50,854 bases of DNA from Dichelobacter nodosus. Lineage in GTDB: Bacteria; Pseudomonadota; Gammaproteobacteria; Beggiatoales; Beggiatoaceae. Each line of letters starts with the position of its first letter. Positions within the stretch are counted from its first letter, which is position 1. The notes beneath the pieces are model-generated. The model made no database searches and was not told the DNA's origin. It saw nothing but the letters and a program-made list of their open reading frames with translations. A program made the position numbers and the translations under genes. Below, in pieces: positions 21,329 through 50,299 of this stretch. The stretch spans positions 13,483 through 64,336 of the forward strand of contig DYPE01000002.1 in NCBI GenBank assembly GCA_020720085.1, given 5' to 3'.

Positions 21329-23065
21329 ATGAAACGAATTGTTGTAGACCCTATCACCCGCATTGAAGGCCATTTACGCATTGAAGCGCAAATGGAGGGC
21401 AATAAAATTGGCCAAGCCTATTCCTCGGGGACTATGGTGCGCGGCTTGGAAATCATTTTGCGCGAGCGTGACCCGCGTGATGCCTGGGCCTTTGCCCAGC
21501 GGATTTGCGGCGTGTGCACGCTGGTGCATGGTATTGCTTCGGTGCGCGCAGTGGAGGATGCTCTGAAATGCACGATTCCCGCCAATGCGCAACTGATTCG
21601 CAATTTGATGATTGCCGCACAGTATGTTCATGATCATGTGATGCATTTTTATCATCTGCACGCACTGGACTGGGTGGATGTGGTGTCTGCGCTGCAAGCC
21701 GATCCCAAGGCTACCGCAGAATTGGCGCAATCGCTCAGCCACTGGCCCAAGTCTTCGCGCGGCTATTTCGCGGACATGCAGAAAAAACTCAAAGATTTTG
21801 TCGAGGCTGGCCAATTGGGTATTTTCGCGCAGGGCTATTGGGGGCATCCGGCGTATAAACTGCCAGCAGAAGTGAACTTGCTGGCCGTGGCGCATTATTT
21901 GGAAGCCTTAGAATGGCAGCGTGACGTAGTGAAATTGCACACGATTTTTGGCGGCAAAAATCCACATCCCAATTTCCTGGTTGGCGGTGTGCCATGCCCA
22001 ATTGACTTAAATTCCGACTCTGCGCTCAACAGCGCGCGCTTCGCGCAAGTGCAAGCGGTGATTCACCAAATGCAGGCGTTTGTGGATCAAGTGTATGTGC
22101 CCGACACTTTGGCGATTGCCGGTTTTTACAAGGATTGGGGCACACGCGGCGAAGGCTTGGGCAATTTTATGTGCTACGGCGATTTTCCAGCCCAAGCCAG
22201 GAACGCTGGCGTTGGCATGAACGATCCTGCTTCCATGCTTTTCCCCAATGGCGCGATTCTTAACCGCAACCTCAATGAAATCCACCCGGTGGATTTGAAT
22301 GACAACGAGCAGGTGCAAGAATTCATTGCCCATTCTTGGTACCGCTATCAAGACGGCCAGGACACAGGCTTACATCCTTACGCGGGCGAAACCGAATTGC
22401 ATTACACTGGCCCGCAACCGCCTTACGAACAATTGGACGTGGCGCAGGCATATTCCTGGCTCAAAGCGCCGCGTTGGCGCGGTCATGCCATGGAAGTGGG
22501 GCCGCTGGCGCGCGTGCTGCTGCTGTATGCCAAGGGCCACGATCAAACCAAAGAGCTGGTGGATAGCACCTTGTCTAAGCTGCAACTGCCAGTGGAAAGC
22601 TTGTATTCCACGCTGGGGCGCACTGCCGCACGCACGCTGGAAACCAAAATCGTGGTGGATGCCATGCAGGGCTGGCTTAACCAATTGTTGGCCAACATCA
22701 AGGCTGGCGACACCAAAACCTTTAACGATACGCTATGGGAGCCGTCGTCATGGCCTGCCCAATGCCAAGGCGTGGGCTACATGGAGGCCCCACGCGGCGG
22801 GCTGGCGCACTGGATTGTTATTGAAAATCAAAAAATCGCCAATTATCAAGCCGTGGTGCCCAGCACGTGGAACGCTGGCCCGCGCGATACGCAAAACCAG
22901 CCTGGCGCGTATGAGGCGGCATTGCAGCACAACCATGAGCTGCACGATCCCAAACAGCCTGTGGAAATTCTGCGCACCATTCACAGCTTTGACCCATGCA
23001 TTGCCTGTGCGGTGCATTTGACCGACGCCACGGGCGCTGAACTAACGCAAGTGCGCGTGCGCTAA
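21329..23065 (+). CDS. [NiFe]-hydrogenase large subunit (group 1-like), orphan
   Basis: Catalytic subunit of 578 residues that should bind the Ni-Fe(CN)2CO centre and oxidise H2. The N-terminal ligand motif is RICGVC (C60, C63, with H67). The C-terminal motif DPCIACAVH has C557, C560 and H563, and is followed by a 15-residue tail that a maturation endopeptidase would remove after the His. VDPITRIEGHLRIEA at the start is typical of the uptake type. AGAGGA precedes the ATG. No small subunit, cytochrome b, endopeptidase or hyp gene is found anywhere in the window, which is unusual since small and large subunit genes are normally adjacent. A terminator follows at once, so it appears to be a single-gene unit. 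Confidence 0.92.
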   Translation: MKRIVVDPITRIEGHLRIEAQMEGNKIGQAYSSGTMVRGLEIILRERDPRDAWAFAQRICGVCTLVHGIASVRAVEDALKCTIPANAQLIRNLMIAAQYVHDHVMHFYHLHALDWVDVVSALQADPKATAELAQSLSHWPKSSRGYFADMQKKLKDFVEAGQLGIFAQGYWGHPAYKLPAEVNLLAVAHYLEALEWQRDVVKLHTIFGGKNPHPNFLVGGVPCPIDLNSDSALNSARFAQVQAVIHQMQAFVDQVYVPDTLAIAGFYKDWGTRGEGLGNFMCYGDFPAQARNAGVGMNDPASMLFPNGAILNRNLNEIHPVDLNDNEQVQEFIAHSWYRYQDGQDTGLHPYAGETELHYTGPQPPYEQLDVAQAYSWLKAPRWRGHAMEVGPLARVLLLYAKGHDQTKELVDSTLSKLQLPVESLYSTLGRTAARTLETKIVVDAMQGWLNQLLANIKAGDTKTFNDTLWEPSSWPAQCQGVGYMEAPRGGLAHWIVIENQKIANYQAVVPSTWNAGPRDTQNQPGAYEAALQHNHELHDPKQPVEILRTIHSFDPCIACAVHLTDATGAELTQVRVR

Positions 23066-23075
23066 CGCGCCCTGG

Positions 23076-23122
23076 CCCTGGCAAGAAGCGGGTATCCGCA
23101 TCATTGCCAGGGCTATTTTTTT
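23076..23122 (+). terminator. Rho-independent terminator after the hydrogenase gene
   Basis: CCCTGGCAA (23076-23084) pairs perfectly with TTGCCAGGG (23104-23112), with a small GCGG/CCGC hairpin inside the loop, followed by CTATTTTTTT. It starts 10 bp after the stop codon. Confidence 0.85.
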
Positions 23123-23152
23123 ACGCCCTCCAGAACTTGTAGGATTTTTTTC

Positions 23153-24124
23153 ATGCCATCCATTACCGCCAATGCGGCCAACCTCGTCCCGGTGTGCGTA
23201 TATTTGGGCGAAGAACTGGGCCGTTACGCCTTTCCTGACCATCCTTTTGGCGATGGGCGACTGGCCGCGTTTACCACCGCACTGCGCACGCAAGGCTTGT
23301 TGGCGCAAATTTGCACGCGCGCGCCGCAAACTGCATCCTCCCATCTTCTTGCCCAATTTCACCATAAAAAATATATAGAAGAAGTCATTGCCGCTGCAAC
23401 TGCGGGCGTGGGCAAGCTGGATTGCGACACGCCAGTATTTCCCGGCATTTACGACGCTGCCGCCACGGTGGTCGGCACAGCAGTGGCCGCCGCGCGCGCG
23501 CTCATGGATGGCGAATGCCGACGTGCGTTTGTGCCGATTGGCGGCTTGCACCATGGCTACCGCCACCGTTCTGCGGGCTTTTGCGTGTTTAATGATTGCG
23601 GCGTGGTGATTGAAATTTTACGCAAGGAATACGGCCTGCACCGCATTTTGTATGTGGACATTGACGCCCATCATGGCGATGGCGTGTTTTACGCCTTTGA
23701 GGATGATCCAGAATTATTTATCTTAGATTTTCATGAAGATGGCAAGTTTTTGTATCCTGGCACTGGCAGCCGCGACGAAACTGGCCATGGCCCAGCGCGC
23801 GGTACGAAACTGAATGTGCCGTTGCCGCCAGCAAGCAACGACACGCTATTTTTGCGCTATTGGCAGGAAGCCGCAGAGCCGTTTATCGCACAAGCGCGGC
23901 CTGAGTTTATTGTGTTTCAATGCGGTGCCGATTGTCTAACCGGCGATCCATTGGCGCATTTGCAACTGACGCCGGAAATTCACCGCTATACGGCGCAGCG
24001 CTTGTCCGCGCTGGCGGATGAACATTGCCAAGGTCGCATTTTGGGCCTAGGCGGCGGCGGTTATGCGTTACACAATTTAGGTCCCGCGTGGACTGGCGTG
24101 GTGGAAGGTTTTTTAGGCGATTAA
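23153..24124 (+). CDS. Histone-deacetylase-fold deacetylase (AcuC/acetylpolyamine amidohydrolase class)
   Basis: A 323-residue cytosolic zinc hydrolase. Visible motifs are GGLHHGYRHRSAGFCVFND with the paired His at 133-134, YVDIDAHHGDGV with zinc ligands D171 and H173, a second Asp in CGADCLTGDP, and the catalytic Tyr in LGGGGYALHN. The length fits the compact bacterial class. Substrates in this class include acetyl-lysine proteins and acetylated polyamines; nothing here decides between them. AGGA lies upstream. It ends 11 bp before the convergent FG-GAP gene. Confidence 0.88.
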   Translation: MPSITANAANLVPVCVYLGEELGRYAFPDHPFGDGRLAAFTTALRTQGLLAQICTRAPQTASSHLLAQFHHKKYIEEVIAAATAGVGKLDCDTPVFPGIYDAAATVVGTAVAAARALMDGECRRAFVPIGGLHHGYRHRSAGFCVFNDCGVVIEILRKEYGLHRILYVDIDAHHGDGVFYAFEDDPELFILDFHEDGKFLYPGTGSRDETGHGPARGTKLNVPLPPASNDTLFLRYWQEAAEPFIAQARPEFIVFQCGADCLTGDPLAHLQLTPEIHRYTAQRLSALADEHCQGRILGLGGGGYALHNLGPAWTGVVEGFLGD

Positions 24125-26520: not shown

Positions 26521-29500
26521 CTATAATGTATTCCGGCACGAGGCGTTGTTATAACCCCTGGTTTCAATGCCAGTGTTGGGATCATTAGAAATGGTCGCCG
26601 GACCGCCAATGCCAAATGGGCTGACTGCGCCAGGCGGGCTGGTGGTCTGAACGATGTAGTCCTCAGCAGCGCCACTCAACTCAAATTCAGCCTGGTCAGC
26701 ATCTTCCGTACCCGCAACCACTGCCCGGGCGATCAAGCGCACATCCACCCAGTGGGCATTTTCTTGGCCATATAGGATGTTAAATGCGGCAAAGCCGTTT
26801 TTATCCGTGACTACCGTGCCTGGTTCTACTGCCACCACGTTACCCGGATCAAGGCGGTTATTGCCGTTGTAATCGCTTTCCGCATTGTCGAGAATGCCGT
26901 TAAAATCAAAATCCACCCGGCCACTGCTGCGGTCTTCATTCAAGCAGGCGCGGTAATCTGGATCCGTTAAATTGGCCAGCGGCGCAGTCTCCAGGGTAGG
27001 AATTTTTACCCATATTTTGGCCACGCCATTCCACTCATGATAGCCCTTGTAATAACGCAACGGTTGCACTGCCAACGTTACTTCCGCACCCGCCACTGCC
27101 GCGCCGTTAATATCTGTCACCAGCACGTTGTAAGGGTAGCGGTAGGTGGTTTCATTCAATTCTTCAATGGTATTGCCAGTGCCCAATGCCACGAACACGC
27201 CACGCTGCGCCACGGTTAAAGTCACCACGCGGCTGAGGCCGGTTTCGGTGCGTGCGGTGATTTTCACGCCATTGGACGCGCTGGACGAAGACCCCGCGAT
27301 GTACACGGTGCTGGCGCGGCCAAATTGGTCGGTAACCGCAGACGATGGGCTGATTTTGCCGCCCGTCACATCTTCCAGCAAAAAGTCCACCCGCATGTTT
27401 TTCACCAGATTGTTTTTGGCGTCGCGCACCACGGCAATAATTTCGCTTTGCTCCGAGTCCGCGCCTGGCTGATTCACACCCAGTGACGCTGGATTGGCTT
27501 GCAAGTCCAATAAGCTGGCGTCTTTGGAGACAAAATATAAGGAATAGGCGGCTGAAGGGCCGTCTGCGGCTTGGCTCTTGGCCGTAATGGTGGCTGGGCC
27601 AGCATTGTCGGCCTTTACGCCAAAACGCGCTTCGCCATTGACTCGACCCGTGGTCACCACGCCGTTTAACACATTGCCCGCATCATCCACCAATTGGCCA
27701 CGGGTGGTGGAGATGTTAATGGGCTGCAAGCCCAGTGGCGAATTATTTTGCAGCCATTTCACCACCAAGAAACAGGTTTGGCCCAGCGGCACGTTCAAAT
27801 CGGTGCCGGTCTTGGGATAGGCTTCGCAGGTGGCATCCGGTAGCAGCGTGAAGTTATCCGTGGAAATGGTTAAACTCACCTTCCCTTCGGTTGCTTTGGT
27901 CACGGCGGCATATTGTGGGTCTGGTACCAGTGTGGCCGTGATGGTGTCCGCATTGGCTGTGGCGGTAATTTGTAATTCAAATTCCGCGCGCCCACTGCCA
28001 TCTGTGGTCAAGTCTTTGTTGCTGATGGTATTATTTTGGGCAGAAACAATGGCCAGTTTTTGGCTGCCCAAGCCCTTGCCAGCAGAGTCTTTAACGAAGA
28101 CCGCATAACTTTGTTTGCTGTTGAGGGTGGCACTGGTCGGGCCAGAGATGGTGACATTGGTGCCATTCACTTCCACTGTAATGGTTTTGGTCAAGCTGCC
28201 GCTTTTGGCGGTTACTTGAATCGTGCGATTGAGCGGATTGCCCACCGTGGTCAACAACGCTTTGGCAATGCCCGCCGTGGTGGTTACGCCAGCGGCTTCA
28301 GGAGCACCATCGACTTTAATCACTTGAATGTCGCCGGAAGTGGCTTCAAAACGCACTGCCGCGCCCGCAAATGGGTTGTTATCTTTGGTTTTGATGCGTG
28401 CGGTGAGCGTCACACCCGTGGGATTGCCTTCTGAGGCCAAGGTTGGGCTGCTGGCCAGTAATTCCAGTGTGGCATCGGCTGGCGGCGGCGCGCTGCCCCC
28501 CAGTTGTACAAAGGTCACGCCCGCTGCCTTGGTTTGTGTTGTGCCTGGCGCAGTGGCTGTCACTGTAACCGCTTCTGGTACGGTGTTGGAAAGTGTGGTT
28601 TCAAACACACCATTCGTACCGGTAGTTCCTTCCGTTTTACCAAATTTCGCCGTGCTAGAAGTGGAGGTTAATTTGACGTTCTGGCCGCTGACCGGTGCGC
28701 CATCCTTATTCAGCGCGATAACCTGCACTTTGGCCGTATCCTGGCCGTCCGCGATGGGGCCACCACTGGTAGAGGGCGTCACCTTCAAATCCAGTTTATC
28801 CAGTTTGGCACTGCCGCCTGGGATGACAAATTCAATGGACACGGCTGAGGTATTTTGGATACCAGCCACAGTCGCGGTCACCGAATGCCTGCCCGGCGTG
28901 CCGCTCACCACCGAGACCGTCATCATGCCCATGGCATCGGTAACCCCTGTGGCCGGGGTTTTGAATTCCACCGTGTTGCCTTCAATCTGAACCTGCACGG
29001 GCGCGTTGGGCACGGGAACGCCCTTGTTTCTGGCCACCACGTTCAGTTGGATGGTATCCGTATTGTCCGCGTTCGCGCCATTGTTGATGAGGTTTACCGT
29101 GACCTCAGACGGCACGGCGCCCACAGGTGTGGTAAACGCAATGGTCACAGCTTGGCCTTTCACCCCATTAGCAGTGGGCGTAATGGTGACAGACTCGGCT
29201 TTGGTGTTGGTGACTTTAGCGCGGAACACACCATTGTCGCCAGTGTTGCCAGAAGCGGGGGTTAAAATCGCGGTGCCAGAGGTACTGGACAATTGAATGC
29301 CAATATTTTTCATGGGCACATTATTGGCATCCCTAGCGATTACGGTTACTTCCACCTCGGCTTTGCCATCAGCGACTTCGGTTGCTTTGTTCACGGTGGT
29401 GGTGACTATGGCGGGTGGTGAATCCGAGGAACTGGCCACGAACGTCACGGCTTGCGCGCTGGGCGTGCGTTTGTCAGACACCGTGGCGGACACCAACACG

Positions 29501-31365
29501 GTTTCAGGGATGGTATCCGTAATGGCTGTGGCGAATTTACCGCCTGCGTCGGTGACGCCCGTGGCTTGCGCTGGCGTGGCGGAGCCATGGGAAAATATTA
29601 AGGCCACTGGCGCATTGACCACCGGCTGCCCGGTAGCATCGCGGGCAACGACAGTGAACGTGGCAGCGGATTTGCCGTCTGCGGGTTGATTGTTATTGCT
29701 GACAGTAGCTTGCACGCTGTCCACTAGCGGCTGGAGCGTTTTAAAGGTAACCGCTTGGCGTCCGCTGGAAACGCCTTGCGAGGAAGCTTCCACGAAAAAG
29801 GTTTCCGGCACGCTGTTAACGACATTGGTGGTAAACACACCGCCGGCATTGGTTTTACCCGCAGCCGAGGTGAACACCGCTGTTCCAGAATCCGACGTGA
29901 ACACCACATCCTTGTCTGCCATGGGTACGTTTTGCGTGCTGCGTACAATCGCCGAGATCACAGTGGCGGATTTACCGTCTGCTGGCTGGTTATTGGGAGA
30001 AATCGTCAGCGTCACTTGGCCGGGCGGCGTAGTATCATCCTTCGGGGTGGCCACGAAAGTGACTGATTTTGGGGCCGAAGGCATGTTGGCGACCACACCA
30101 GTTACCTCAAAAGTTTCCGGTACCGAGTCGGTAAGCGTGGCGACAAACCGCCCGCTGGGGTCTGTGGTACCTGTGGCAGGGTTGAGTTTAGCCGTGCCGC
30201 TAGAAAGTTGAATGGCCACCGGCGCGCCCAACACCGGATTGCGGGCCGCATCACGGGCGTACACGGTCAGCGTTGTAAGGCTGGCACCATCCGCTGGCTG
30301 GTTGTTGCCACTCACGTTAATGATCACTTCAGCAACGTTGAATGCGGATTTGACAAAAACTACGTCTTTGGTTTCGCTATTTACTGTCCCAGCAGTGGCA
30401 GTGACTTTCACGGTTTCTACCACCGGGTCTGCCACGGTAAACAGCAGTACGCCATTGTCTCCGGTTTGACCGGTGGCGGGCGTCACTGCCGCACTGCCAG
30501 AGCTGACAGAAATTTTTACTGGCACGCCAGCAATGGGGGTGCCTGAAGCATCCCTGGCCACCAACATCAGTTGCGCTGTGTCCTTGCCATCCGCCAACGC
30601 ATTGTTTTTACTGACCGTAAGGGTGACACTATGGGGCGTGGTTAAGCCCACCGCCGTAAACCTGACTTCCTTCGGCGCTTGCGCGCCGCCACCGACAATT
30701 GGGGTCACCTGCGCTACTTCCGCCACAGTATCCACAATGGCGGCAATCACGACGCCGTTGTTATCCGTTACTGCATCCGGCGGCAACGAGGACAGCGCGA
30801 ATGATCCTAGCGAAAATGCCAGTTTGACGGGCACGCCAGCAATCGGCAAGCCATTATGATCTTGAATGCGCACAATAAGGTACACAGCAGCCGTACCATT
30901 GGCCAGTTGGTTATTGCCTTGCAATTCACTGGAAACCCGAGCACCGTAATACAACGTCAGCGTCTGCGTGACTGAGCCGCTGCCTACGCTCACGGTGACC
31001 GGGCCTGCGGCATTGGCAGTGACTTGGAACGAGGCCTGACCATTCAGCCCGGTGGCAGTAGGCAATCCGCCCAGCGCGGCATTTGAGGAAAAAGTCAACG
31101 GCGCGTTGCCCACCGGATTGTCATTGGAATCCAGTGTCTTGACTGTGATGGCGGTGGTTTTGCCCACATCCACAATGGTTTGGCCAACAAACTCCAGTTT
31201 GGCTACTGGCAGAGTCGTTGCCGTAGCGCCAGAGGTGGAGGTTCCAGAAGAGCTTCCTGAACTGCTGGAGCTGCCTTCGTCGGAAAATGCGCCGCCGCCG
31301 CTACAACCGGCTAAAAAGCCAGCAATCGTTAAAAATACAGTCCAAGAGAGCAGTTGTTTCCACAT
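26521..31365 (-). CDS. Giant Ig-like (Big_1-type) repeat lipoprotein, likely adhesin
   Basis: A 1614-residue protein with signal and lipobox (FLAGC), then a Ser/Gly-rich linker. About 13-14 tandem Ig-like units of ~100 residues follow, recognised by NNQPADGKS, then VVARDATGQPV.NAPV, then TDAGGKF and PETV.VSA. Units 3-9 are most alike; outer ones have diverged. The last unit carries an insert with DFDFNGILDNAE, a complete EF-hand loop, and DYNGNNRLDPGN, a partial one. Cysteines are rare, apart from a few near the C-terminus. AAGGA precedes the ATG. It starts 69 bp after pilQ on the same strand, so cotranscription with the pilus operon is plausible. Attachment or scaffold function is inferred from the intimin/invasin-type repeats; no beta-barrel anchor is visible. 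Confidence 0.82.
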   Translation of the reverse strand: MWKQLLSWTVFLTIAGFLAGCSGGGAFSDEGSSSSSGSSSGTSTSGATATTLPVAKLEFVGQTIVDVGKTTAITVKTLDSNDNPVGNAPLTFSSNAALGGLPTATGLNGQASFQVTANAAGPVTVSVGSGSVTQTLTLYYGARVSSELQGNNQLANGTAAVYLIVRIQDHNGLPIAGVPVKLAFSLGSFALSSLPPDAVTDNNGVVIAAIVDTVAEVAQVTPIVGGGAQAPKEVRFTAVGLTTPHSVTLTVSKNNALADGKDTAQLMLVARDASGTPIAGVPVKISVSSGSAAVTPATGQTGDNGVLLFTVADPVVETVKVTATAGTVNSETKDVVFVKSAFNVAEVIINVSGNNQPADGASLTTLTVYARDAARNPVLGAPVAIQLSSGTAKLNPATGTTDPSGRFVATLTDSVPETFEVTGVVANMPSAPKSVTFVATPKDDTTPPGQVTLTISPNNQPADGKSATVISAIVRSTQNVPMADKDVVFTSDSGTAVFTSAAGKTNAGGVFTTNVVNSVPETFFVEASSQGVSSGRQAVTFKTLQPLVDSVQATVSNNNQPADGKSAATFTVVARDATGQPVVNAPVALIFSHGSATPAQATGVTDAGGKFATAITDTIPETVLVSATVSDKRTPSAQAVTFVASSSDSPPAIVTTTVNKATEVADGKAEVEVTVIARDANNVPMKNIGIQLSSTSGTAILTPASGNTGDNGVFRAKVTNTKAESVTITPTANGVKGQAVTIAFTTPVGAVPSEVTVNLINNGANADNTDTIQLNVVARNKGVPVPNAPVQVQIEGNTVEFKTPATGVTDAMGMMTVSVVSGTPGRHSVTATVAGIQNTSAVSIEFVIPGGSAKLDKLDLKVTPSTSGGPIADGQDTAKVQVIALNKDGAPVSGQNVKLTSTSSTAKFGKTEGTTGTNGVFETTLSNTVPEAVTVTATAPGTTQTKAAGVTFVQLGGSAPPPADATLELLASSPTLASEGNPTGVTLTARIKTKDNNPFAGAAVRFEATSGDIQVIKVDGAPEAAGVTTTAGIAKALLTTVGNPLNRTIQVTAKSGSLTKTITVEVNGTNVTISGPTSATLNSKQSYAVFVKDSAGKGLGSQKLAIVSAQNNTISNKDLTTDGSGRAEFELQITATANADTITATLVPDPQYAAVTKATEGKVSLTISTDNFTLLPDATCEAYPKTGTDLNVPLGQTCFLVVKWLQNNSPLGLQPINISTTRGQLVDDAGNVLNGVVTTGRVNGEARFGVKADNAGPATITAKSQAADGPSAAYSLYFVSKDASLLDLQANPASLGVNQPGADSEQSEIIAVVRDAKNNLVKNMRVDFLLEDVTGGKISPSSAVTDQFGRASTVYIAGSSSSASNGVKITARTETGLSRVVTLTVAQRGVFVALGTGNTIEELNETTYRYPYNVLVTDINGAAVAGAEVTLAVQPLRYYKGYHEWNGVAKIWVKIPTLETAPLANLTDPDYRACLNEDRSSGRVDFDFNGILDNAESDYNGNNRLDPGNVVAVEPGTVVTDKNGFAAFNILYGQENAHWVDVRLIARAVVAGTEDADQAEFELSGAAEDYIVQTTSPPGAVSPFGIGGPATISNDPNTGIETRGYNNASCRNTL

Positions 31366-31434: not shown

Positions 31435-33657
31435 TCAATCCGTCGCGGCTTTGTCCGCCAGGATTTTGGGCGTTACAAAAATTAACAATTCACGTTTATC
31501 ATCTTTTCTTAATGTGGAACGGAATAATCCGCCCACGATGGGCAAGTCGCCGAAGAATGGCACACGCCGCACCGATTTATCCACCGTGCGTTCAAATACG
31601 CCGCCCAGTACCACCGTTTCACCGTTGTCCACCAACACTTGGGTTTCCACTTCGCGTTTATCAATTAAATATTCTGTGCCAGATACGCGCTCATTGTTTT
31701 TCGTGACATGCAAGTCCATGATAACGCGGTCATCCGGTGTGATTTGTGGTGTCACGTCCAATTGCAGCATGGCTTCCTTAAATTGTACAGTGGCAATCCC
31801 GCCGGCTGCGACGCGGGGATAGTATGGGATTTCCACACCTTGTTTGATAGTCGCTTTGCGCTGATTGGCGGTAATTACGCGCGGACTGGAGATGATTTCG
31901 CCTTCGCCGTTTTGTTGTAATGCAGTCAATTCCAATTGCAGCAAATACGTGCCAATCTTGCCAATGGCCATGCCCAGTGCTGCTGCGTCCGGTGTGGAGG
32001 CGGGCAAATCCACCATCAGACTTTCCTTGCCACCCACGCTGATGGCGGTTCCCGTGCCTTCCAGCACGCCCGATTTGGTAAATGAACCGCCAGTGATAAT
32101 GCCTGAACCCGGCTCGCCGGAAATGCGCGCATTGGTGCTTTGGCCAAAACGCACACCCAAGTCTTTGAGGAAAGCATCGGAAGCAATCACCACACGGGAT
32201 TCAATCAGCACTTGGCGCACTGGACGATCCAGCGAAGTCACTAGGGAGCGTACCTCTTCCAGCTTATCTGCTGTGTCTTGCACAATGAGCGTATTGGTAC
32301 GTTCGTCCACCGACACATTGCCGCGCGAGGACAAAAATGAGTGTTCGCCCTGTTTTTTCAACAAACCTACCAAAGTGGCGGCCTTGGAATAATTCACTTG
32401 CACGAATTCGGTGCGCACTGGCTCCAATTCCTTGATTTCTTTCTGCGCTGCCAACCGCGTGCGCTCGCGTGCATCGATATTGGCTTGCAAATCAATGCTC
32501 CACACGTTACCCATTTCGGTTTTGCCCAATGATTTAGAATTTAGAATAATATCCAGCGCCTGATCCCAAGGCACATTTTTTAAGCGCAAAGTCACCTTGC
32601 CAGTCACTGCATCGGTGGTGATGATGTTCACACCGCGAAAATCCGCAATCAAATTCAACACCGCATGAATGTCGATATTCTGAAAATTGAGCGAGATTTT
32701 CTCACCCGTATATTGCCGATCCTTAATGGCGATTTCCTCTTTTTTCTGTTCAGGCGCGACTTGCTTAACTTCTATGGTGTAGACATTGCCAGTTTGATAG
32801 GACAGGTGCTCATATTTTCCCGTAGTGGAGACTTCCATGTGGGTGTCTTTGCCGCTTTCCTTAGTGTCTATGGTGAGCACCGGCGTGGCAAAATCCACCA
32901 CATCCAAACGGCGATCTAATCGCTCTGGCAATACGGTATCGCGGAAGTCAACCACGATTTTTTTGCCTTCCTCGCGCATGTCCACAGTGGTCGTGGGATC
33001 AGATAACGTAATGATAATTTGCCCAGCACCACTACGGTTGCGACGGAAATCAATCTGCTGAATGTGCGGTTCGCGAACGATGGGTTCCGCTTGAGACGTA
33101 GCCTGCGTATCTGCGAATACGCTGCCTGGAGAATCTTGCATGGCTTGTCGCGTGGTAGGCTCTGGCGGTGCGCTTTCGGGTGGCGCATCCGCCACAGGTG
33201 GCGGTGGGCTGGTGGCAATTTGATTTTTAGCCGCTGTGCCAATGGAAACAATCATGCGGTTACCTTCCACCGCTGTGGTATACGCTTCAGTGCGCACCAG
33301 GCTAATGACCATGCGAGCGCGGCTATTGGCTTCCACCAAACCCACGCCTTGCACCGCGCCAATGCCAATATTCAGATTTTTTTCTGCCACACTGGGCCGG
33401 GTGGCAGGAAAGTCAAATACAATTCGCGAGGGATTGCTGGTGGTGAAGCTTAGCGGTTCAGGCACTTTGTCGGCGAATTCCAAGGTGACTTGCACATCAT
33501 TGCCGGGCAGTACAGAGAATTTCATATCCTTGATTTCATAACTGTCTGCCCGCGCTCCGTCCGCCAATGCCCACAGCAAGCAACCCCATGCGAGCCACCA
33601 GGCCCAGTGCGTCACGCGCTGTGCGTTTTCCGTTCTGTTCCACAGTGCATTGTTCAT
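31435..33657 (-). CDS. pilQ: Type IV pilus secretin PilQ
   Basis: Outer-membrane channel through which the pilus passes. The 740 residues have a signal peptide (LAWGCLLWALADGARA) and two AMIN domains (~42-130 and ~205-300), split by a Pro-rich linker, that bind peptidoglycan. The N0/N1 domains (~325-480) include NFQNIDIHAVLNLIADFRG. The secretin core runs from ~500 to the end, with VPFFGDLPIVGGLFR as its signature. AAGGA before the ATG overlaps the pilP stop. It is the last gene of the pilM-N-O-P-Q set, in the standard order. Confidence 0.96.
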   Translation of the reverse strand: MNNALWNRTENAQRVTHWAWWLAWGCLLWALADGARADSYEIKDMKFSVLPGNDVQVTLEFADKVPEPLSFTTSNPSRIVFDFPATRPSVAEKNLNIGIGAVQGVGLVEANSRARMVISLVRTEAYTTAVEGNRMIVSIGTAAKNQIATSPPPPVADAPPESAPPEPTTRQAMQDSPGSVFADTQATSQAEPIVREPHIQQIDFRRNRSGAGQIIITLSDPTTTVDMREEGKKIVVDFRDTVLPERLDRRLDVVDFATPVLTIDTKESGKDTHMEVSTTGKYEHLSYQTGNVYTIEVKQVAPEQKKEEIAIKDRQYTGEKISLNFQNIDIHAVLNLIADFRGVNIITTDAVTGKVTLRLKNVPWDQALDIILNSKSLGKTEMGNVWSIDLQANIDARERTRLAAQKEIKELEPVRTEFVQVNYSKAATLVGLLKKQGEHSFLSSRGNVSVDERTNTLIVQDTADKLEEVRSLVTSLDRPVRQVLIESRVVIASDAFLKDLGVRFGQSTNARISGEPGSGIITGGSFTKSGVLEGTGTAISVGGKESLMVDLPASTPDAAALGMAIGKIGTYLLQLELTALQQNGEGEIISSPRVITANQRKATIKQGVEIPYYPRVAAGGIATVQFKEAMLQLDVTPQITPDDRVIMDLHVTKNNERVSGTEYLIDKREVETQVLVDNGETVVLGGVFERTVDKSVRRVPFFGDLPIVGGLFRSTLRKDDKRELLIFVTPKILADKAATD

Positions 33658-33660
33658 AAT

Positions 33661-34278
33661 TTATTCCTTCGCCTCTGAGGCCAGTGTGGATGCGCGCTCG
33701 ACATAACAACCCCTGCCGTCGTCTACCATTTCCACCAGCTCAATAGCCGTTTCCGTGATGTTAATAATTTTGCCGTGATTTTGGCCGATGTAGTTATTCA
33801 CTTCTACCTGGTAAATCACCTGATCGGGATCCAACACCAAGCCCCAGCGGCGTTTGCCTTGTTCCAAAATACCTACCATGGTTAATGCATCCAGCGGAAA
33901 ATTTTCTAGGGCTTCTTTATTGCGATGGGCATCAGGCCGCATACACAGTGACGCATCTTCTTTGGCGGTATTTTCTACATTTCCTTTTTCCGTGCCCTGC
34001 ATCCGGTCAAGGTCTTGGAAAGGATCGCGCATATTCATCACCGTATACAAATGCGGAATGTCTGGTTTGAACGGCGGTAATTCTTGCGGTGGCGGGCTGG
34101 GTAGCTTTTTAATGCGTTCAACTTCCGCCGTTAAATCGTTGTAACTGCGTTCCGCGCACCCCGTCAGCCATATAGTAGCAATCCCTAGCATTCCGCGCGC
34201 CAATACTTTGCGCCAACCCATCCTGTTGGGCTGAGACAGCGTGATATGAGCTAATGGCGGATTATTTTTCATTTTCAT
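33661..34278 (-). CDS. pilP: Type IV pilus lipoprotein PilP
   Basis: A 205-residue inner-membrane lipoprotein (lipobox WLTGC) that connects the PilNO complex to PilQ. It has a Pro-rich linker (KKLPSPPPQELPPF), the motif MRDPFQD, and a C-terminal beta domain with GILEQGKRRWGLVL and VNNYIGQNHGKIINI. The start overlaps pilO by 17 bp; the ATG at 34272, two codons in, has GGAT upstream and is an equally good start. A ~40-residue N-terminal part before the hydrophobic stretch is longer than usual, so MGWRKVL further in is also possible. Confidence 0.93.
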   Translation of the reverse strand: MKMKNNPPLAHITLSQPNRMGWRKVLARGMLGIATIWLTGCAERSYNDLTAEVERIKKLPSPPPQELPPFKPDIPHLYTVMNMRDPFQDLDRMQGTEKGNVENTAKEDASLCMRPDAHRNKEALENFPLDALTMVGILEQGKRRWGLVLDPDQVIYQVEVNNYIGQNHGKIINITETAIELVEMVDDGRGCYVERASTLASEAKE

Positions 34279-34861
34279 CCATATAGCGGTAAGTTTTGGC
34301 TGTAGTGGTCATGCGCAGTTTGCTATCTTTGGCCGTGCGCGGTTGAATTATAATGTCGTGCATGGTCACAATGCGTTGCAATGCGGCAATGTCACTTACA
34401 AATTTACCAAACGAATGGTAGTCACCAATCACGCTGATTTTAATTTGCAATTCACGGTAAAATCCATCCTTGCCTTGTACTTCGCGTTCAGGTTGGAACA
34501 ACTCAAAGGTAACTTTATTTGCAATCCCGGTTTGTGAAATATCCACCAACAAACCTGGCACTTCAGTTTGGCTAGGCAGGCGTTTGAGCAATTCGCCAAA
34601 GGAGCTTTCGATTTCTTGTAATTGCGCTTTTAATTGTTCTAGTTGGTTGGCTTGGCGTTGTTTGGTAGTAAACTGCTCTAACAATTCTTTTTCTTTAATT
34701 TGCGCCCGACTTAATGTCTCCAATTGCGGTTGCGTGTCATAATAGTAACCAACACCGAGTAAAGTAACGCATAGCACGGCAATAACCACCACTTTTACGG
34801 GTACTGGCCAATTGCCGATATTTTTGGCATCTAATTTACTCAGGTCTATGCTATTGCTCAT
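34262..34861 (-). CDS. pilO: Type IV pilus inner-membrane protein PilO
   Basis: A 199-residue bitopic protein: short cytosolic tail, membrane segment VKVVVIAVLCVTLLGVGYYY (~23-42), a coiled coil rich in Gln/Glu (~50-95), and a periplasmic ferredoxin-like domain with LLVDISQTGIANKVTFELF and IKISVIGDYHSFGKFVSDIA. It pairs with PilN to align the secretin with the motor complex. It sits 12 bp after pilN and overlaps pilP. No strong ribosome site is seen, in keeping with coupled translation. Confidence 0.94.
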   Translation of the reverse strand: MSNSIDLSKLDAKNIGNWPVPVKVVVIAVLCVTLLGVGYYYDTQPQLETLSRAQIKEKELLEQFTTKQRQANQLEQLKAQLQEIESSFGELLKRLPSQTEVPGLLVDISQTGIANKVTFELFQPEREVQGKDGFYRELQIKISVIGDYHSFGKFVSDIAALQRIVTMHDIIIQPRTAKDSKLRMTTTAKTYRYMDENEK

Positions 34862-34873
34862 AAAATTACATAT

Positions 34874-35650
34874 CTATTCTTTTTCAGATTCTTTAGGAGA
34901 CGATGATGTTGGTTTAGGTTTTTCTGTTGGTTTATTGCCGGGTTTGTCTTTTTTATCCTTGGCATTTTTATCTTTTTTTGCAGATTCTTCTTCTGTATTT
35001 TGCGAGGGCTGCTCCATTTGCAAGGTAAATTGGCTTTCTTTTTTCCCACCTTGTTCCACGGTTTTAATTACCACCAATTTTACATCTTTGAACCATTCCG
35101 AACCGCCCGGAATCCCCCCATCTAATTTACGCATCAGTGTGGAAATACTTGCTTGGGATTGCGCCACACCGTTGATGGTAATGGTGCGATTTTTTTGCGC
35201 TAAACCGGTAAAATAAACGCCTGAAGGCAGTTGCTTCACCAATTCGTCAAACAGATGTACCACTTCTGGGCGGCTGGCTTGTAATTTTTGAATCACTTCC
35301 ATGCGGTTATACAGTTGCTCGCGTTTTTTCTTTAATTCCTTAATTTGTTCAATCTTTTCATCCGCTTTTTTAATTTCTTCATTCAGATAATCATTGCGGC
35401 GGTTTTGATAATTAATTAATCCAGCAATGTATAAATGCACCAATAGGAAAATGATTGCAGAAGCCGCCACTGCGATGCCTGTGGCAGCAGCAAAACGGGT
35501 TTCTCGCTCCTTGCGCAGTTCATCGCGCCAAGGCAGCAGGTTGATTTTCATCATTTGACGAGGCGCTGCGATGCGCGTATTGCTGCTTTCTTCTGCGGTT
35601 TTATCCTTCTTTTTCCACGCCGCAGTTTTTTTCTTGCCAAACCAGCTCAT
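34874..35650 (-). CDS. pilN: Type IV pilus inner-membrane protein PilN
   Basis: A 258-residue protein containing the conserved stretch INLLPWRDELRKERE, which is the PilM-binding site. Here it is preceded by ~30 extra Lys-rich residues. A membrane helix follows (~75-95), then a coiled coil (IKKADEKIEQIKELKKKREQ) and the ferredoxin-like periplasmic domain. A Lys/Glu/Pro-rich C-terminal tail of ~40 residues (from about residue 215) is additional to the usual ~180-200 residue PilN. The start overlaps the pilM stop by ATGA. Confidence 0.94.
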   Translation of the reverse strand: MSWFGKKKTAAWKKKDKTAEESSNTRIAAPRQMMKINLLPWRDELRKERETRFAAATGIAVAASAIIFLLVHLYIAGLINYQNRRNDYLNEEIKKADEKIEQIKELKKKREQLYNRMEVIQKLQASRPEVVHLFDELVKQLPSGVYFTGLAQKNRTITINGVAQSQASISTLMRKLDGGIPGGSEWFKDVKLVVIKTVEQGGKKESQFTLQMEQPSQNTEEESAKKDKNAKDKKDKPGNKPTEKPKPTSSSPKESEKE

Positions 35651-36720
35651 TGGTAGAAACTCCGCAATGCTAGGCCGCAGGCAATCATTAACGCAGGTGC
35701 GTCGCTCATTAAGGCTTTTTTATTTACTTTTGAATTCACAGACATGCTGGCAAAAGGGTTGGCAACCATCACCCGCCCGCTCAATTTGGCAGCCACCAAA
35801 TCATCAATGCCGGGAATGGAAGCGCAACCGCCTGCTAACACAGTGTGAGTAATCGTGCCCACCGTGCTGGAGGAATAGTAAAAATTCATCGCGCGGCTAA
35901 CCTCTTGCGCCAGGGATTCCTTAAAAATTTCCAGCACTTCGTTTTCGTAATCTTCGGGCAAGGTATTTTGCCGTTTGGCCATCATGGCTTCGTCGTAGCT
36001 CAAGCCATAGCGCGATTGAATTTCCTCGGTCAGTTGATTGCCGCCAAAGCTCAATTCGCGGGTATATACGACTTTCAAATCTTGCAATACGCTGAAAGTC
36101 ATCACCGTGGCGCCCATGTCTACCAGCGCAATGGGTTCTTGCGTGGGAATTTCCGGATCATTTTCCGCGAGTAGGGCAAAGGCATTTTCCATTGCAAACA
36201 ATTCAATGTCCACCACCTTGCCTTTGAGGTTGGCATATTCCAACACCGCCATGCGGGCATTGATGATTTCCGTTTTGGAAGCCGCCAGCATGATGTCGAC
36301 TTCATCTGGATTTTTTTCGCTAGGTCCAAGAACTTGAAAATCCAGGCTCACTTCATCCATGGGGTAGGGAATGTACTGTTCCGCTTCCAAACGCACAGAT
36401 TCGAGCATTTCCTCGTCCGCGCCGCCGCCAGGCATTTGGATGGTTTTGGTGATTACAGCGGAACCTGCCACGGCAATCGCTGCCCATTCGGTTTTGGGCT
36501 TGGCTTTTTTAATCGCGCGCACTAACGCTTCGCCCACAGGCTCCACATCAACAATGTTTTTATCCGCCACCACATTTTGCGGCAACGGTTCCACTGCGTA
36601 GGTTTCCACCCGGTAACGATGGGTATTGGCTGCCAGGCGGCTAAGCTCCAGCAATTTCACCGCTGTGGTGCTGATGTCGATGCCCACTACTGGCACTGGC
36701 TTGGTACTGAAGATTCCCAC
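35647..36720 (-). CDS. pilM: Type IV pilus actin-like protein PilM
   Basis: Cytoplasmic FtsA/actin-like ATPase that docks PilN to the motor. I chose the GTG at 36720 because AAAGG lies 10 bp upstream and the product then begins VGIFSTKPVPVVGIDIS, as PilM proteins usually do; the frame upstream opens only with a TTG at 36756. Actin-like motifs include GIDISTTAVKLLELS (phosphate 1), ALVDMGATVMTFSVL (phosphate 2) and HTVLAGGCASIPGID (adenosine site). The length of 357 residues is typical. It begins the pilMNOPQ operon. Confidence 0.95.
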   Translation of the reverse strand: MGIFSTKPVPVVGIDISTTAVKLLELSRLAANTHRYRVETYAVEPLPQNVVADKNIVDVEPVGEALVRAIKKAKPKTEWAAIAVAGSAVITKTIQMPGGGADEEMLESVRLEAEQYIPYPMDEVSLDFQVLGPSEKNPDEVDIMLAASKTEIINARMAVLEYANLKGKVVDIELFAMENAFALLAENDPEIPTQEPIALVDMGATVMTFSVLQDLKVVYTRELSFGGNQLTEEIQSRYGLSYDEAMMAKRQNTLPEDYENEVLEIFKESLAQEVSRAMNFYYSSSTVGTITHTVLAGGCASIPGIDDLVAAKLSGRVMVANPFASMSVNSKVNKKALMSDAPALMIACGLALRSFYQ

Positions 36721-36802
36721 GTGATTTGACCTTTCAAATCGATAGGTTAGGCGCAATAGCTCGAGTAAACATTAAGCAACGGCTGTAACTATAAAACAAA
36801 TT

Positions 36803-46459: not shown

Positions 46460-46652
46460 ATTTTTTTCCTTATTTTCCTTGTGTTCTTCGTGGTTTCACG
46501 CAGTTGCCTGCATGATTTTTCCTTAAAACCAGCCGTGCTGTCAACGCTGCATGGGGCAATTCGGGGCGTTTTCGCCTGGCCTTCTGTATCCATCGGTCAT
46601 CTTGCAATACAATATAACCCATTATTTTTCCCTCACGCACAGGCAGAACACC

Positions 46653-47810
46653 ATGACCGATTCTAAGGACGCATTTCCGCCACTCCCGCCCCCCGTTGAC
46701 AGCGATCCCTACGCGCCGCTGCCGCCTAAACCCGGCAACCCTTGGCTAGAACGCCTGGCCAGCGCGCGCACTGGCGCGCAAACCTGGCTGGGCCAGCACG
46801 CTAGCGGTGCTGGCGGTTGGGGCACAAAACGGCTGTTGTTGGTGGTGGGCGGCATTTTTTTAGTATTTTACGCAGTGGCACTGTACTGGAGTTGCGAACC
46901 CGCCGCCTTTACCGTGATCAAGACCGCGCAAATACGCGCTGCCAAGCATGGCGTGCCTAGTGACGCCAAGTTGGTAACCGGTTATCTGACTACGGCCACA
47001 CTGGTGGAAGTGACAGAAACCTTGCTGCGCAAACCGGGCGGCTATGTATCTAACGACAAAACCCCGCCGGGCGCACTGATGGACAACATGGCCAGTTGGG
47101 AATGGGGTGTATTACAACAAACGCGCGATTTTGCGCTGTCGTTGCGCAATGACATGAGCCGTTCGCAAACGCAATCCACCGAAGACCGCGATTTAATGGA
47201 AGCGCAAACCTTATTTAATTTACCCAATGATTCGTGGATGTTGCCCGCAGCGGAAAGCAATTACCGCAAAGGCATACGCTATTTGGATAATTATTTGGCG
47301 CGCTTGGCAGACAATGACCAAGCGGATGCACAATTTTTTGCGCGTGCGGATAATTTGCGCGATTGGCTGAAATTGGTGGAAAAAAAGCTGGGCAGTTTGT
47401 CGCAACGCCTCAGCGCCAGCGTGCGCCAATACCGCGTCAATACCGACTTGGCGGGCGATGCGGAGGCAGCTAAGGCCAAGGAAGGCACAGCGCAAATGGA
47501 AACCAAAACGCCGTGGCTGGAAATTGACAACGTTTTTTATGAAGCACGCGGCACGGCCTGGGCCTTGCTGCATTTGCTCAAAGCGGTGGAAGTCGATTTC
47601 GCGGGCGTGCTAGAGAAAAAAAATGCGCTGGTGAGCCTGCGCCAAATTATCCGCGAATTGGAGGCCACGCAAAAAACCGTATGGAGTCCGTTGATTTTGA
47701 ATGGCGCTGAATTTGGCTTATTCGCCAATCATTGTTTGGTCATGAGTTCTTACATTTCGCGCGCCAATGCCGCGATTATTGATTTGCGCAATTTGCTGGT
47801 GCAAGGGTAA
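46653..47810 (+). CDS. DUF2333 family inner-membrane protein
   Basis: The start at ATG 46653 is supported by AGGCAG upstream; a frame open from 46551 lacks support. The 385 residues comprise a Pro-rich N-terminus (PPLPPPVDSDPYAPLPPKPG), one membrane segment (LLLVVGGIFLVFYAVALYW, ~63-81), and a large periplasmic alpha-helical domain. The latter has GGYVSNDKTPPGALMDNM and WEWGVLQQTRDFALSLRNDM, which mark this gammaproteobacterial family. Its function is unknown. It is 9 bp upstream of the scpB-containing gene. Confidence 0.85.
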   Translation: MTDSKDAFPPLPPPVDSDPYAPLPPKPGNPWLERLASARTGAQTWLGQHASGAGGWGTKRLLLVVGGIFLVFYAVALYWSCEPAAFTVIKTAQIRAAKHGVPSDAKLVTGYLTTATLVEVTETLLRKPGGYVSNDKTPPGALMDNMASWEWGVLQQTRDFALSLRNDMSRSQTQSTEDRDLMEAQTLFNLPNDSWMLPAAESNYRKGIRYLDNYLARLADNDQADAQFFARADNLRDWLKLVEKKLGSLSQRLSASVRQYRVNTDLAGDAEAAKAKEGTAQMETKTPWLEIDNVFYEARGTAWALLHLLKAVEVDFAGVLEKKNALVSLRQIIRELEATQKTVWSPLILNGAEFGLFANHCLVMSSYISRANAAIIDLRNLLVQG

Positions 47811-47819
47811 TGCGCGGGC

Positions 47820-49550
47820 ATGGAAGATAGTGCGGCCTTAAAATCCGTGGTGCAAGGCGCCTTGTTGGCGGCAGGGCGCGCGTTGACGGTGGATGAACTG
47901 GCTGAGTTGTTTTTACCACAAGAAGCGCGCGGCACGGAAGAATTGGGGCCATACCGCGAACTGCGCGAGGCCGTGCGCAAGCAAGTGCGCGCCGCATTGG
48001 CAGAATTGCGCGCGTCCTCTAGCCTGGACGCGGTGGAAGTGGTGGAAGTGGCCAGCGGCTTTCGTTATCAAATCAAACCGCCGATTGCCGAAAAAGTCAG
48101 CTATTTGTGGGATGCCCACCCGCAACGCCTAACACGCGCCATGCTGGAAACGTTGGCGCTCATTACCTACCGTCAACCCATCACGCGCGGTGAAATCGAA
48201 AATATTCGTGGCGTGAGCGTCAGCAGTCAGATTATTAAATCGTTTTTAGAATACGGCTGGATTCGCGTGGTGGGCCATAAAAATTCGCCAGGACGGCCCC
48301 AGTTGTTCGGCACCACCAAGGAATTTTTGGATATTTTTAGCCTCAAAAGTTTGGACGAACTGCCGCCCCTGGCAGAATTGCGCGATGTCGCGCAACTGCA
48401 AGCCCAGGGCTTGTTGGACTTGCCGCCCACCGAGGCGAGCACGCCGGAGCATGAACTGCCCCCGCCTTTTGCCATTGCAACACAAGGAGATAATTCTACA
48501 ATGACTGCCGTGCGTTTACCCGCCGAATGGGAGCCGCAGCACGCAATATTGCTCACTTGGCCCCATGCCCACACCGATTGGGCCGAACAATTGACTGCCA
48601 CCGAACAAGTGTACCTGGAGATTGCGCGCCAGGTGTGCCTGCGCCAAGATTTGGTGGTTGCCTGCCACGATGCTGCGGTGCTGGCGCAGGTGCGCACCCG
48701 CTTGGCAGAAGCGGGGATTGATTCGGCGCGTTACCGCCTGGCGATTGCGCCGTGCAACGACACTTGGGCGCGTGATCATGGCCCGATTACGGTGTTTATC
48801 CAAGAAAATGGCGCAAACCGCGCCGAGTTGCTGGATTTTCGCTTTAACGCCTGGGGCAACAAATATGCTGCAAATTTGGACGATCAAATCACCTGCACGC
48901 TGCATGAAGCGGGCGCGTTTCCTGGCCTAACGCGGCGTGCGCTGGATTTTGTGCTGGAAGGCGGCGGCATTGACAGTGATGGCCAAGGCACAGTGCTGAC
49001 CACCACCTCCTGTCTGCTCGCACCCACGCGCAACCCCGGGCTGGATCGCCCGCACATTGAGCAAAAACTGCATGAATTTCTCGGTGCGCAACGGGTATTG
49101 TGGCTGACCAACGGCCAGTTGCAAGGCGATGACACGGACGGCCATATCGACACGCTGGCGCGGTTCGCGGATGCGCAAACCATTGTTTATCAAGCTTGTG
49201 ATGACGAACAAGATGATTTATACGCTGTACTGCACGCCATGCGTGATGAACTGCACACCCTGCGCACCGCGCAAGGTGAACCTTACCGCTTGCTCGCCCT
49301 CCCCTGGCCGCGCGCCCAAACCAATTCACGCGGCGAACGGCTGCCTGCAACGTATGCTAATTTTTTGATTATCAATGGTGCTGTGCTCATGCCTAGCTAT
49401 GGCGATCCAGCAGATGGCGCGGCAGCCGCCGTATTGCAACAGGCTTTCCCTGAGCGCGAAATCGTCCCAATTGACTGCCAAGCGCTGATTCAACAATTTG
49501 GCAGTTTACATTGCGTGACCATGCAAATTCCCGCACTCCCCATTCCATGA
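47820..49550 (+). CDS. In-frame fusion: ScpB (N-terminal) and agmatine deiminase (C-terminal)
   Basis: One open frame of 576 codons. Residues 1-~200 are ScpB, the kleisin-partner of the SMC-ScpAB condensin complex, with two winged-helix domains: ALLAAGRALTVDELAELF, then TLALITYRQPITRGEIENIR, GWIRVVGHKNSPGRPQLFGT and FSLKSLDELPPLAELRD. A Pro-rich linker (~205-227) leads to an agmatine deiminase domain of usual full length (~349 residues). Its motifs WARDHGPI, EGGGIDSDG, DDTDGHIDT and the C-terminal catalytic Cys C565 in SLHCVTMQ appear intact. It converts agmatine to N-carbamoylputrescine. A strong AAGGAG and ATG lie inside, so the second enzyme may also be made alone. No scpA is near. Confidence 0.85.
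   Translation: MEDSAALKSVVQGALLAAGRALTVDELAELFLPQEARGTEELGPYRELREAVRKQVRAALAELRASSSLDAVEVVEVASGFRYQIKPPIAEKVSYLWDAHPQRLTRAMLETLALITYRQPITRGEIENIRGVSVSSQIIKSFLEYGWIRVVGHKNSPGRPQLFGTTKEFLDIFSLKSLDELPPLAELRDVAQLQAQGLLDLPPTEASTPEHELPPPFAIATQGDNSTMTAVRLPAEWEPQHAILLTWPHAHTDWAEQLTATEQVYLEIARQVCLRQDLVVACHDAAVLAQVRTRLAEAGIDSARYRLAIAPCNDTWARDHGPITVFIQENGANRAELLDFRFNAWGNKYAANLDDQITCTLHEAGAFPGLTRRALDFVLEGGGIDSDGQGTVLTTTSCLLAPTRNPGLDRPHIEQKLHEFLGAQRVLWLTNGQLQGDDTDGHIDTLARFADAQTIVYQACDDEQDDLYAVLHAMRDELHTLRTAQGEPYRLLALPWPRAQTNSRGERLPATYANFLIINGAVLMPSYGDPADGAAAAVLQQAFPEREIVPIDCQALIQQFGSLHCVTMQIPALPIP
48484..48503 (+). promoter_or_regulatory. Internal Shine-Dalgarno site and ATG for the deiminase part
   Basis: AAGGAG at 48484-48489 is followed 11 bp later by ATG at 48501, exactly where the agmatine deiminase domain begins (MTAVRLPAEWEPQ). 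An out-of-frame TAA (48490-48492) lies directly after the site, where a separate scpB might once have ended. This is the sequence expected of two tandem genes rather than of a designed linker. Confidence 0.7.
48501..49550 (+). CDS. Agmatine deiminase, possible separate product by internal initiation
   Basis: Alternative product of the fused frame, 349 residues, the usual length for the agmatine deiminase family. Internal initiation at ATG 48501 would use the AAGGAG site. The polyamine route then runs agmatine to N-carbamoylputrescine to putrescine; the amidase for the second step (AguB-type) is not in the window. The stop overlaps the ispD start by ATGA. Confidence 0.55.
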   Translation: MTAVRLPAEWEPQHAILLTWPHAHTDWAEQLTATEQVYLEIARQVCLRQDLVVACHDAAVLAQVRTRLAEAGIDSARYRLAIAPCNDTWARDHGPITVFIQENGANRAELLDFRFNAWGNKYAANLDDQITCTLHEAGAFPGLTRRALDFVLEGGGIDSDGQGTVLTTTSCLLAPTRNPGLDRPHIEQKLHEFLGAQRVLWLTNGQLQGDDTDGHIDTLARFADAQTIVYQACDDEQDDLYAVLHAMRDELHTLRTAQGEPYRLLALPWPRAQTNSRGERLPATYANFLIINGAVLMPSYGDPADGAAAAVLQQAFPEREIVPIDCQALIQQFGSLHCVTMQIPALPIP

Positions 49551-50299
49551 CCACCCCAATGGATGACAGCAACTTAGAATATTGGGCAGTATTGCCAGCC
49601 GCTGGCGCGGGCCTACGCATGGGCGCGGATCGGCCCAAGCAGTATTTGCCACTGCTGGGCAAAACTGTGCTGGAACACACCTTAGCGCGCATCCAATCCG
49701 TGCCCGGCCTGACAGGTACCGTGGTGTGCCTGTCCGCGCACGACCCCTACTGGCCCGCGATCCAGCCGCAACCCAACGTGTTGCGCGCAGCGGGCGGCGC
49801 GCAACGCAGCGATTCGGTGCGCAACGGACTGCGTACCTTGCTCGATCACGGCGTGCCTGCACAAGCCTGGGTGCTCGTTCATGACGCCGCCCGCCCGTGC
49901 GTGTGGGTGGCAGACATCCAGCGCTTAATGGCGCAACTGGCGCGCCACCCCGTGGGCGGGCTGCTCGCCACGCCTGTGCGTGACACGCTAAAAAAATCCG
50001 ACGCAGAACAACAAACCACCGCCACGGTGAACCGCACTGGCTTGTGGCACGCGCTCACCCCGCAAATGTTCCGCTTGGGCATTTTGCTGAACGCATTAGA
50101 ACAGGCTGCCGTTCATGCCGTGGCAATCACCGATGATGCGCAAGCCATGGAGTTGCAAGGACATGCGCCCATTTTGGTGGAAGGCCGTGCGGATAATCTC
50201 AAAATCACCCACCCGCGTGACTTGCGCCTGGCGGAAATTTACCTGCGCGCCCAGGCCGAAGAATGGGAATTTCAACCGCGCAAAAATGCCCCGCAATAA
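49547..50299 (+). CDS. ispD: 2-C-methyl-D-erythritol 4-phosphate cytidylyltransferase
   Basis: MEP-pathway enzyme that joins CTP and MEP during isoprenoid synthesis. ATG at 49547 overlaps the deiminase stop; it gives 250 residues. Motifs are PAAGAGLRMGADRPKQY (CTP-binding loop with the essential Arg/Lys), VLVHDAARPCV, PVRDTLKK, ALTPQMF, ITDDAQAME and NLKITHPRDL. It is a single-domain IspD with no IspF part. The gene follows the fusion gene in the same operon. Confidence 0.94.
   Translation: MTTPMDDSNLEYWAVLPAAGAGLRMGADRPKQYLPLLGKTVLEHTLARIQSVPGLTGTVVCLSAHDPYWPAIQPQPNVLRAAGGAQRSDSVRNGLRTLLDHGVPAQAWVLVHDAARPCVWVADIQRLMAQLARHPVGGLLATPVRDTLKKSDAEQQTTATVNRTGLWHALTPQMFRLGILLNALEQAAVHAVAITDDAQAMELQGHAPILVEGRADNLKITHPRDLRLAEIYLRAQAEEWEFQPRKNAPQ

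Follow-up and report, generated by a model that had tools for sequence, protein, structure and literature searches.

A single open reading frame of 576 codons (576 aa), without an internal stop, was found at positions 47820-49550 (+) of the window, the 50,854-nucleotide stretch that was analyzed here from the Dichelobacter nodosus assembly GCA_020720085.1 (2.97 Mb, 170 contigs, 87% completeness). Based on Pfam searches, the translation carries two families in tandem: SMC_ScpB at residues 11-184 (profile 3-160 of 160, E 8e-43) and PAD_porph at residues 232-571 (profile 1-321 of 321, E 1e-119). The preliminary description of this locus as an in-frame fusion of scpB to an agmatine deiminase gene, with both parts keeping their full length and motifs, was correct in coordinates, frame and domains. 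No other ScpB match and no other deiminase of this kind was found in the genome.

The first part (47820-48380, +; residues 1-187) was identified as segregation and condensation protein B, with two winged-helix domains. It passed the curated cut-off of NCBIfam model TIGR00281 (106.4 against 89.2 bits) and matched the ScpB structure 3w6j in the PDB (E 4e-24). As in the ScpB of SMC-ScpAB (TIGR00281, PF04079; PDB 3w6j and 4i98), the winged-helix domains are complete and are followed by a variable C-terminal tail, but here the frame runs into the next gene, whereas the ScpB proteins of relatives, the tails of which are hypervariable, stop 11-211 aa past the conserved part. An extreme example of such a tail was seen in one relative, where it ends in a run of Gly-Ser-Glu repeats (GSEGSEGSE...).

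The second part (48501-49550, +; 349 aa from Met227) belongs to the agmatine deiminase family (AguA/PAD_porph). It matched the broad family PF04371 over its full length with 400 bits against a cut-off of 25, and the structures 1zbr (E 3e-97) and 3hvm (E 1.5e-82), the latter of which we take to be the agmatine deiminase of H. pylori. Alignment to 1zbr, 2cmu and 3hvm revealed the catalytic motifs, including the C-terminal Cys; WARDHGP, EGGGIDSDG, GDDTDGHIDTLARF and GSLHCVTMQ are all present. The name agmatine deiminase, as given initially, holds at the family level but not as an equivalog: the AguA models span this part fully, yet their scores fall below the curated cut-offs (TIGR03380, 230.6 against 381.8 bits; PRK13551, 241.5 against 483 bits). 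Because the models match at full length but below these values, agmatine can be proposed only as a putative substrate. The protein shares its full length and conserved motifs with the known members of the family (PF04371; 3HVM, 1ZBR) and is 53-60% identical to free-standing homologues from Thiomargarita, Ectothiorhodospira, Marinobacter and others; it differs in its sub-equivalog scores, in being fused behind ScpB and in lying away from aguB.

The upstream neighbour (46551-47810, +) encodes a DUF2333 protein (PF10095, E 1.5e-144), and its stop sits 9 bp ahead of the scpB ATG. The listed start of this gene is probably too early (46551-46652), the Pfam match beginning at aa 96; by inspection, the internal Met of MTDSKDAFPP looks better. 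Downstream, ispD (49547-50299, +; Pfam IspD E 4e-65, TIGR00453 above cut-off) shares 4 bp with the end of the deiminase gene, its start overlapping the stop there (ATGA, 49547-49550), an overlap present at five of the 18 close same-strand gene pairs in the window, this one included. Elsewhere in the window, positions 26521-31365 (-) encode a protein of 1614 aa that contains 10 Ig-like (Big_1) stretches as well as matches to Invasin_D3; the gene lies immediately downstream of a pilMNOP-secretin (pilQ-like) run at 31435-36756 (-). Positions 21329-24124 (+) hold the gene for a nickel-iron hydrogenase large subunit (578 aa, full profile) followed by that for a histone-deacetylase-family protein; no hydrogenase small subunit was recognized among the checked reading frames adjoining the large-subunit gene.

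The linker and the internal start

The two domains are joined by about 40 codons rich in Pro, Glu and Ala (48381-48500, +), a linker or variable ScpB tail without a family match; residues 185-231 of the merged frame gave no domain match in Pfam. Codon-usage scores trained on the other genes of the window favoured frame 0 across the linker; the preference is strong as far as about 48456 and weak over the remainder, up to 48500. A frame switch ahead of the junction was considered, and the coding signal gave none before about 48456.

The DNA of the linker also holds the ribosome site of the deiminase gene. As noted previously, AAGGAG and an ATG lie at the domain border; they were located at 48484-48489 (+) and 48501, respectively. 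The predicted pairing of AAGGAG with the anti-Shine-Dalgarno sequence (-8.5 kcal/mol) ranks third strongest among the 30 listed starts of the window and was matched by just two of 246 other in-frame internal ATGs there. The spacing of 11 nt to the ATG is on the long side, which counts against a reading as merged neighbours. RNA folding that would inhibit the internal start was also considered and rejected, the local structure not exceeding that of shuffled versions (z +0.84). The free-standing deiminases of relatives begin at or near the residue matching Met227. Based on the strong Shine-Dalgarno sequence, the lack of excess local RNA structure and these homologues, the deiminase gene most likely had its original start at ATG 48501, so that the second gene retains a native start and ribosome site at the border, as would be expected of a merger by stop loss.

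Initiation at an in-frame internal start gives long and short products from genes such as infB and clpB. The present frame resembles these in having an internal ATG with a ribosome site within a longer frame, and differs in that the internal start is most likely that of an originally separate gene. The junction sequence had no match in viral contigs.

Candidate sites of a possible stop loss

Enumeration of one-substitution stops revealed 11 codon changes in the linker by which a single base would create one. The candidate site of stop loss is the CAA codon at 48483-48485 (+), one base from TAA; with TAA in its place, the sequence becomes TAAGGAG (context ACATAAGGAG), a stop overlapping the Shine-Dalgarno sequence. 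Overlaps of a stop codon with the Shine-Dalgarno sequence of the next gene have been described among closely spaced same-strand genes (PMC2784483). Two further stops were found by reading the other frames. An out-of-frame TAA (frame 2) at 48491-48493 (+) could be the end of scpB if one upstream base were missing; it is the codon that had been placed at 48490 as a stop to be restored, and it exists, one position further on and out of frame. After the opposite frame change, scpB could end at the out-of-frame TGA (frame 1) at 48502-48504 (+), in an ATGA overlap with the deiminase ATG of the kind found at the deiminase-ispD border. One substitution or one-base indel therefore suffices to separate or join the two genes.

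This situation is common in the window. Of its 18 close same-strand pairs, six would be joined in frame by one stop substitution and another eight by one indel near the stop of the first gene; in total, 14 of the 18 are one point mutation from such a merger.

The same positions bear on the principal alternative, a base or assembly error (a miscalled or dropped base, or a chimeric join) that hides a real scpB stop, which we regard as a serious possibility though not the likely one. A changed base at 48483 would yield the canonical operon junction TAAGGAG, and a base added or removed at about 48455-48500 would yield either a TAA placed 10 nt ahead of the start or an ATGA junction; the critical 45 bp include a CCCCC run (48459-48463) and a TTTT run. 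The case is a singleton in a draft of 170 contigs and 87% completeness, and such isolated fusions are liable to be artefacts: when yeast and fly were screened for stop-loss extensions, the sole apparent gene fusion proved to be due to replicated assembly errors (PMC4494051). Against an error, the coding signal keeps its frame up to about 48456, and most of the checked reading frames of the window that match a family do so over nearly the full family length. The indel rate looks low, because none of the other checked reading frames in the window is evidently frame-broken.

The homopolymer runs, and the out-of-frame stops that immediately precede the deiminase start, could also be taken for programmed recoding, in which scpB would normally frameshift at C5/T4 onto TAA 48491 or TGA 48502 and the fusion would be the unshifted product. 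Such recoding is very improbable: by inspection a known slippery heptamer is absent, the local RNA structure is not notable (z +0.84), and the arrangement is not conserved.

Comparison with relatives and the rest of the genome

All relatives compared are at least one genus away from the source genome. A match over the full length (residues 1-576) was absent from the 57 other genomes of the relatives search. The ScpB-deiminase architecture was present in none of the 42 other genomes of the family (43 including the source), which make up the entire order as sampled, the order adding none. Likewise, none of 368 other genomes of the class gave a full-length match, 131 of them having a match at E <= 1e-80, and ScpB did not lie beside the deiminase at any of the best 80 deiminase loci in the genome_contigs collection. 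The search of the phylum, at a threshold of 1e-120, was sensitive to near-identical fusions only. Long open frames surrounding other deiminase genes, the longest of 859 aa, were considered as possible fusions; the 11 that were read had no ScpB match, and by eye their upstream stretches mostly look like shadow frames, rich in Gly, Arg and Pro. The search for the same architecture elsewhere that had been proposed at the outset thus left the source genome as the only case in the family, the class sample and the 80 loci, and the architecture was found in no other lineage.

The scpB and deiminase genes were unlinked in the relatives examined. It had been suggested that the fusion would be refuted if close relatives all had two separate genes; every searched relative having both does have them apart, all of these being at least one genus away. 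The scpB genes of relatives have their own stops wherever the contig continues past the gene. Neither DUF2333, ispD nor the deiminase gene was near the ScpB loci fetched from relatives, and the deiminase genes of the relatives examined were likewise without flanking DUF2333 or ispD. Because the relatives' ScpB loci are without these genes, the order DUF2333-scpB-deiminase-ispD appears, as far as the comparison extends, to be particular to the source lineage, with the merger nested in it.

The usual partners of the two parts were also sought in the genome. An scpA gene is present on another contig (C9:34105-34383; SMC_ScpA 74.8 bits, over the cut-off, profile 1-97 of 232), so that the ScpA partner of the complex is available. 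A gene for an aguB-like N-carbamoylputrescine amidase was found on contig C8 (1-907), beginning 29 bases from the contig edge; its score (286 against 410 bits) lies below the equivalog cut-off. With scpA elsewhere and the aguB-like gene on a further contig, both parts therefore have their usual partners separately. In comparison, an aguB homologue occurs within the flank examined at 83 of 109 deiminase loci, and in most loci outside the order it is close by and on the same strand.

These observations bear on a third explanation, a selected bifunctional protein, in which a fixed fusion, produced alongside a separate deiminase, would tie the polyamine enzyme to the SMC-ScpAB condensin; an example would be the placing of carbamoylputrescine or putrescine production at the nucleoid. 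Both domains are complete with their motifs, and the genome's only ScpB and only such deiminase are in one frame. The positive evidence for bifunctionality goes no further than these intact domains, and we consider it possible but improbable, since the architecture is conserved nowhere searched, the partner genes scpA and aguB are located elsewhere, the deiminase retains a strong independent start and the linker has no family match. The literature, as far as its text was accessible, held no description of an ScpB-deiminase fusion, in agreement with the earlier remark that none was known; the two co-mentions of ScpB and the deiminase appeared to be whole-genome strain reports.

A probable merger of adjacent genes

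The explanation that we favour, and hold to be probable rather than secure, is that scpB and the deiminase gene, lineage-specific neighbours, were merged incidentally by one recent small mutation, with the deiminase still initiating on its own. The two genes would first have become adjacent in the source lineage; this earlier arrangement is reconstructed, because the relatives are without adjacent scpB and deiminase genes. A single recent mutation in the 3'-terminal part of scpB would then have joined the frames, the simplest candidates being a TAA-to-CAA change at 48483 and an indel of one base within the final approximately 45 bp of scpB. Both the recency of the event and the identity of the mutated base are put forward tentatively, the comparison genomes all lying outside the genus.

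From such a locus two products may be expected. Initiation at ATG 48501 would give a separate deiminase of 349 aa (39 kDa), which is most likely still made because the gene has retained a ribosome site and start of its own. Ribosomes not stopping after ScpB would give an ScpB-linker-deiminase protein of 576 aa (62 kDa). The long product would be tolerated by the cell, since ScpB tails are naturally long and variable, and the link would be incidental and neutral rather than a condensin-polyamine device. Of the three options offered in the preliminary description, two are favoured jointly, a fusion together with a separate deiminase and a recently lost scpB stop, while a bifunctional link between condensin and polyamine synthesis gained no support.

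The merger proposed here resembles known cases in which neighbouring genes have fused through stop loss or a small indel: it joins a close same-strand pair in frame, lies one mutation away from the separate genes and is found in one genome. It differs in its partners, ScpB and the deiminase not being described together in the accessible text of the literature searched.

The fusion itself is thus confirmed as an observation, and its cause is most likely an ordinary one. The long protein, if produced and retained, would physically connect bacterial condensin with polyamine synthesis, a link of which no described case was found. On present evidence, the locus illustrates how closely packed genes on one strand can lie a single mutation from an in-frame merger, and it cautions against inferring function from a fusion known in only one draft genome.
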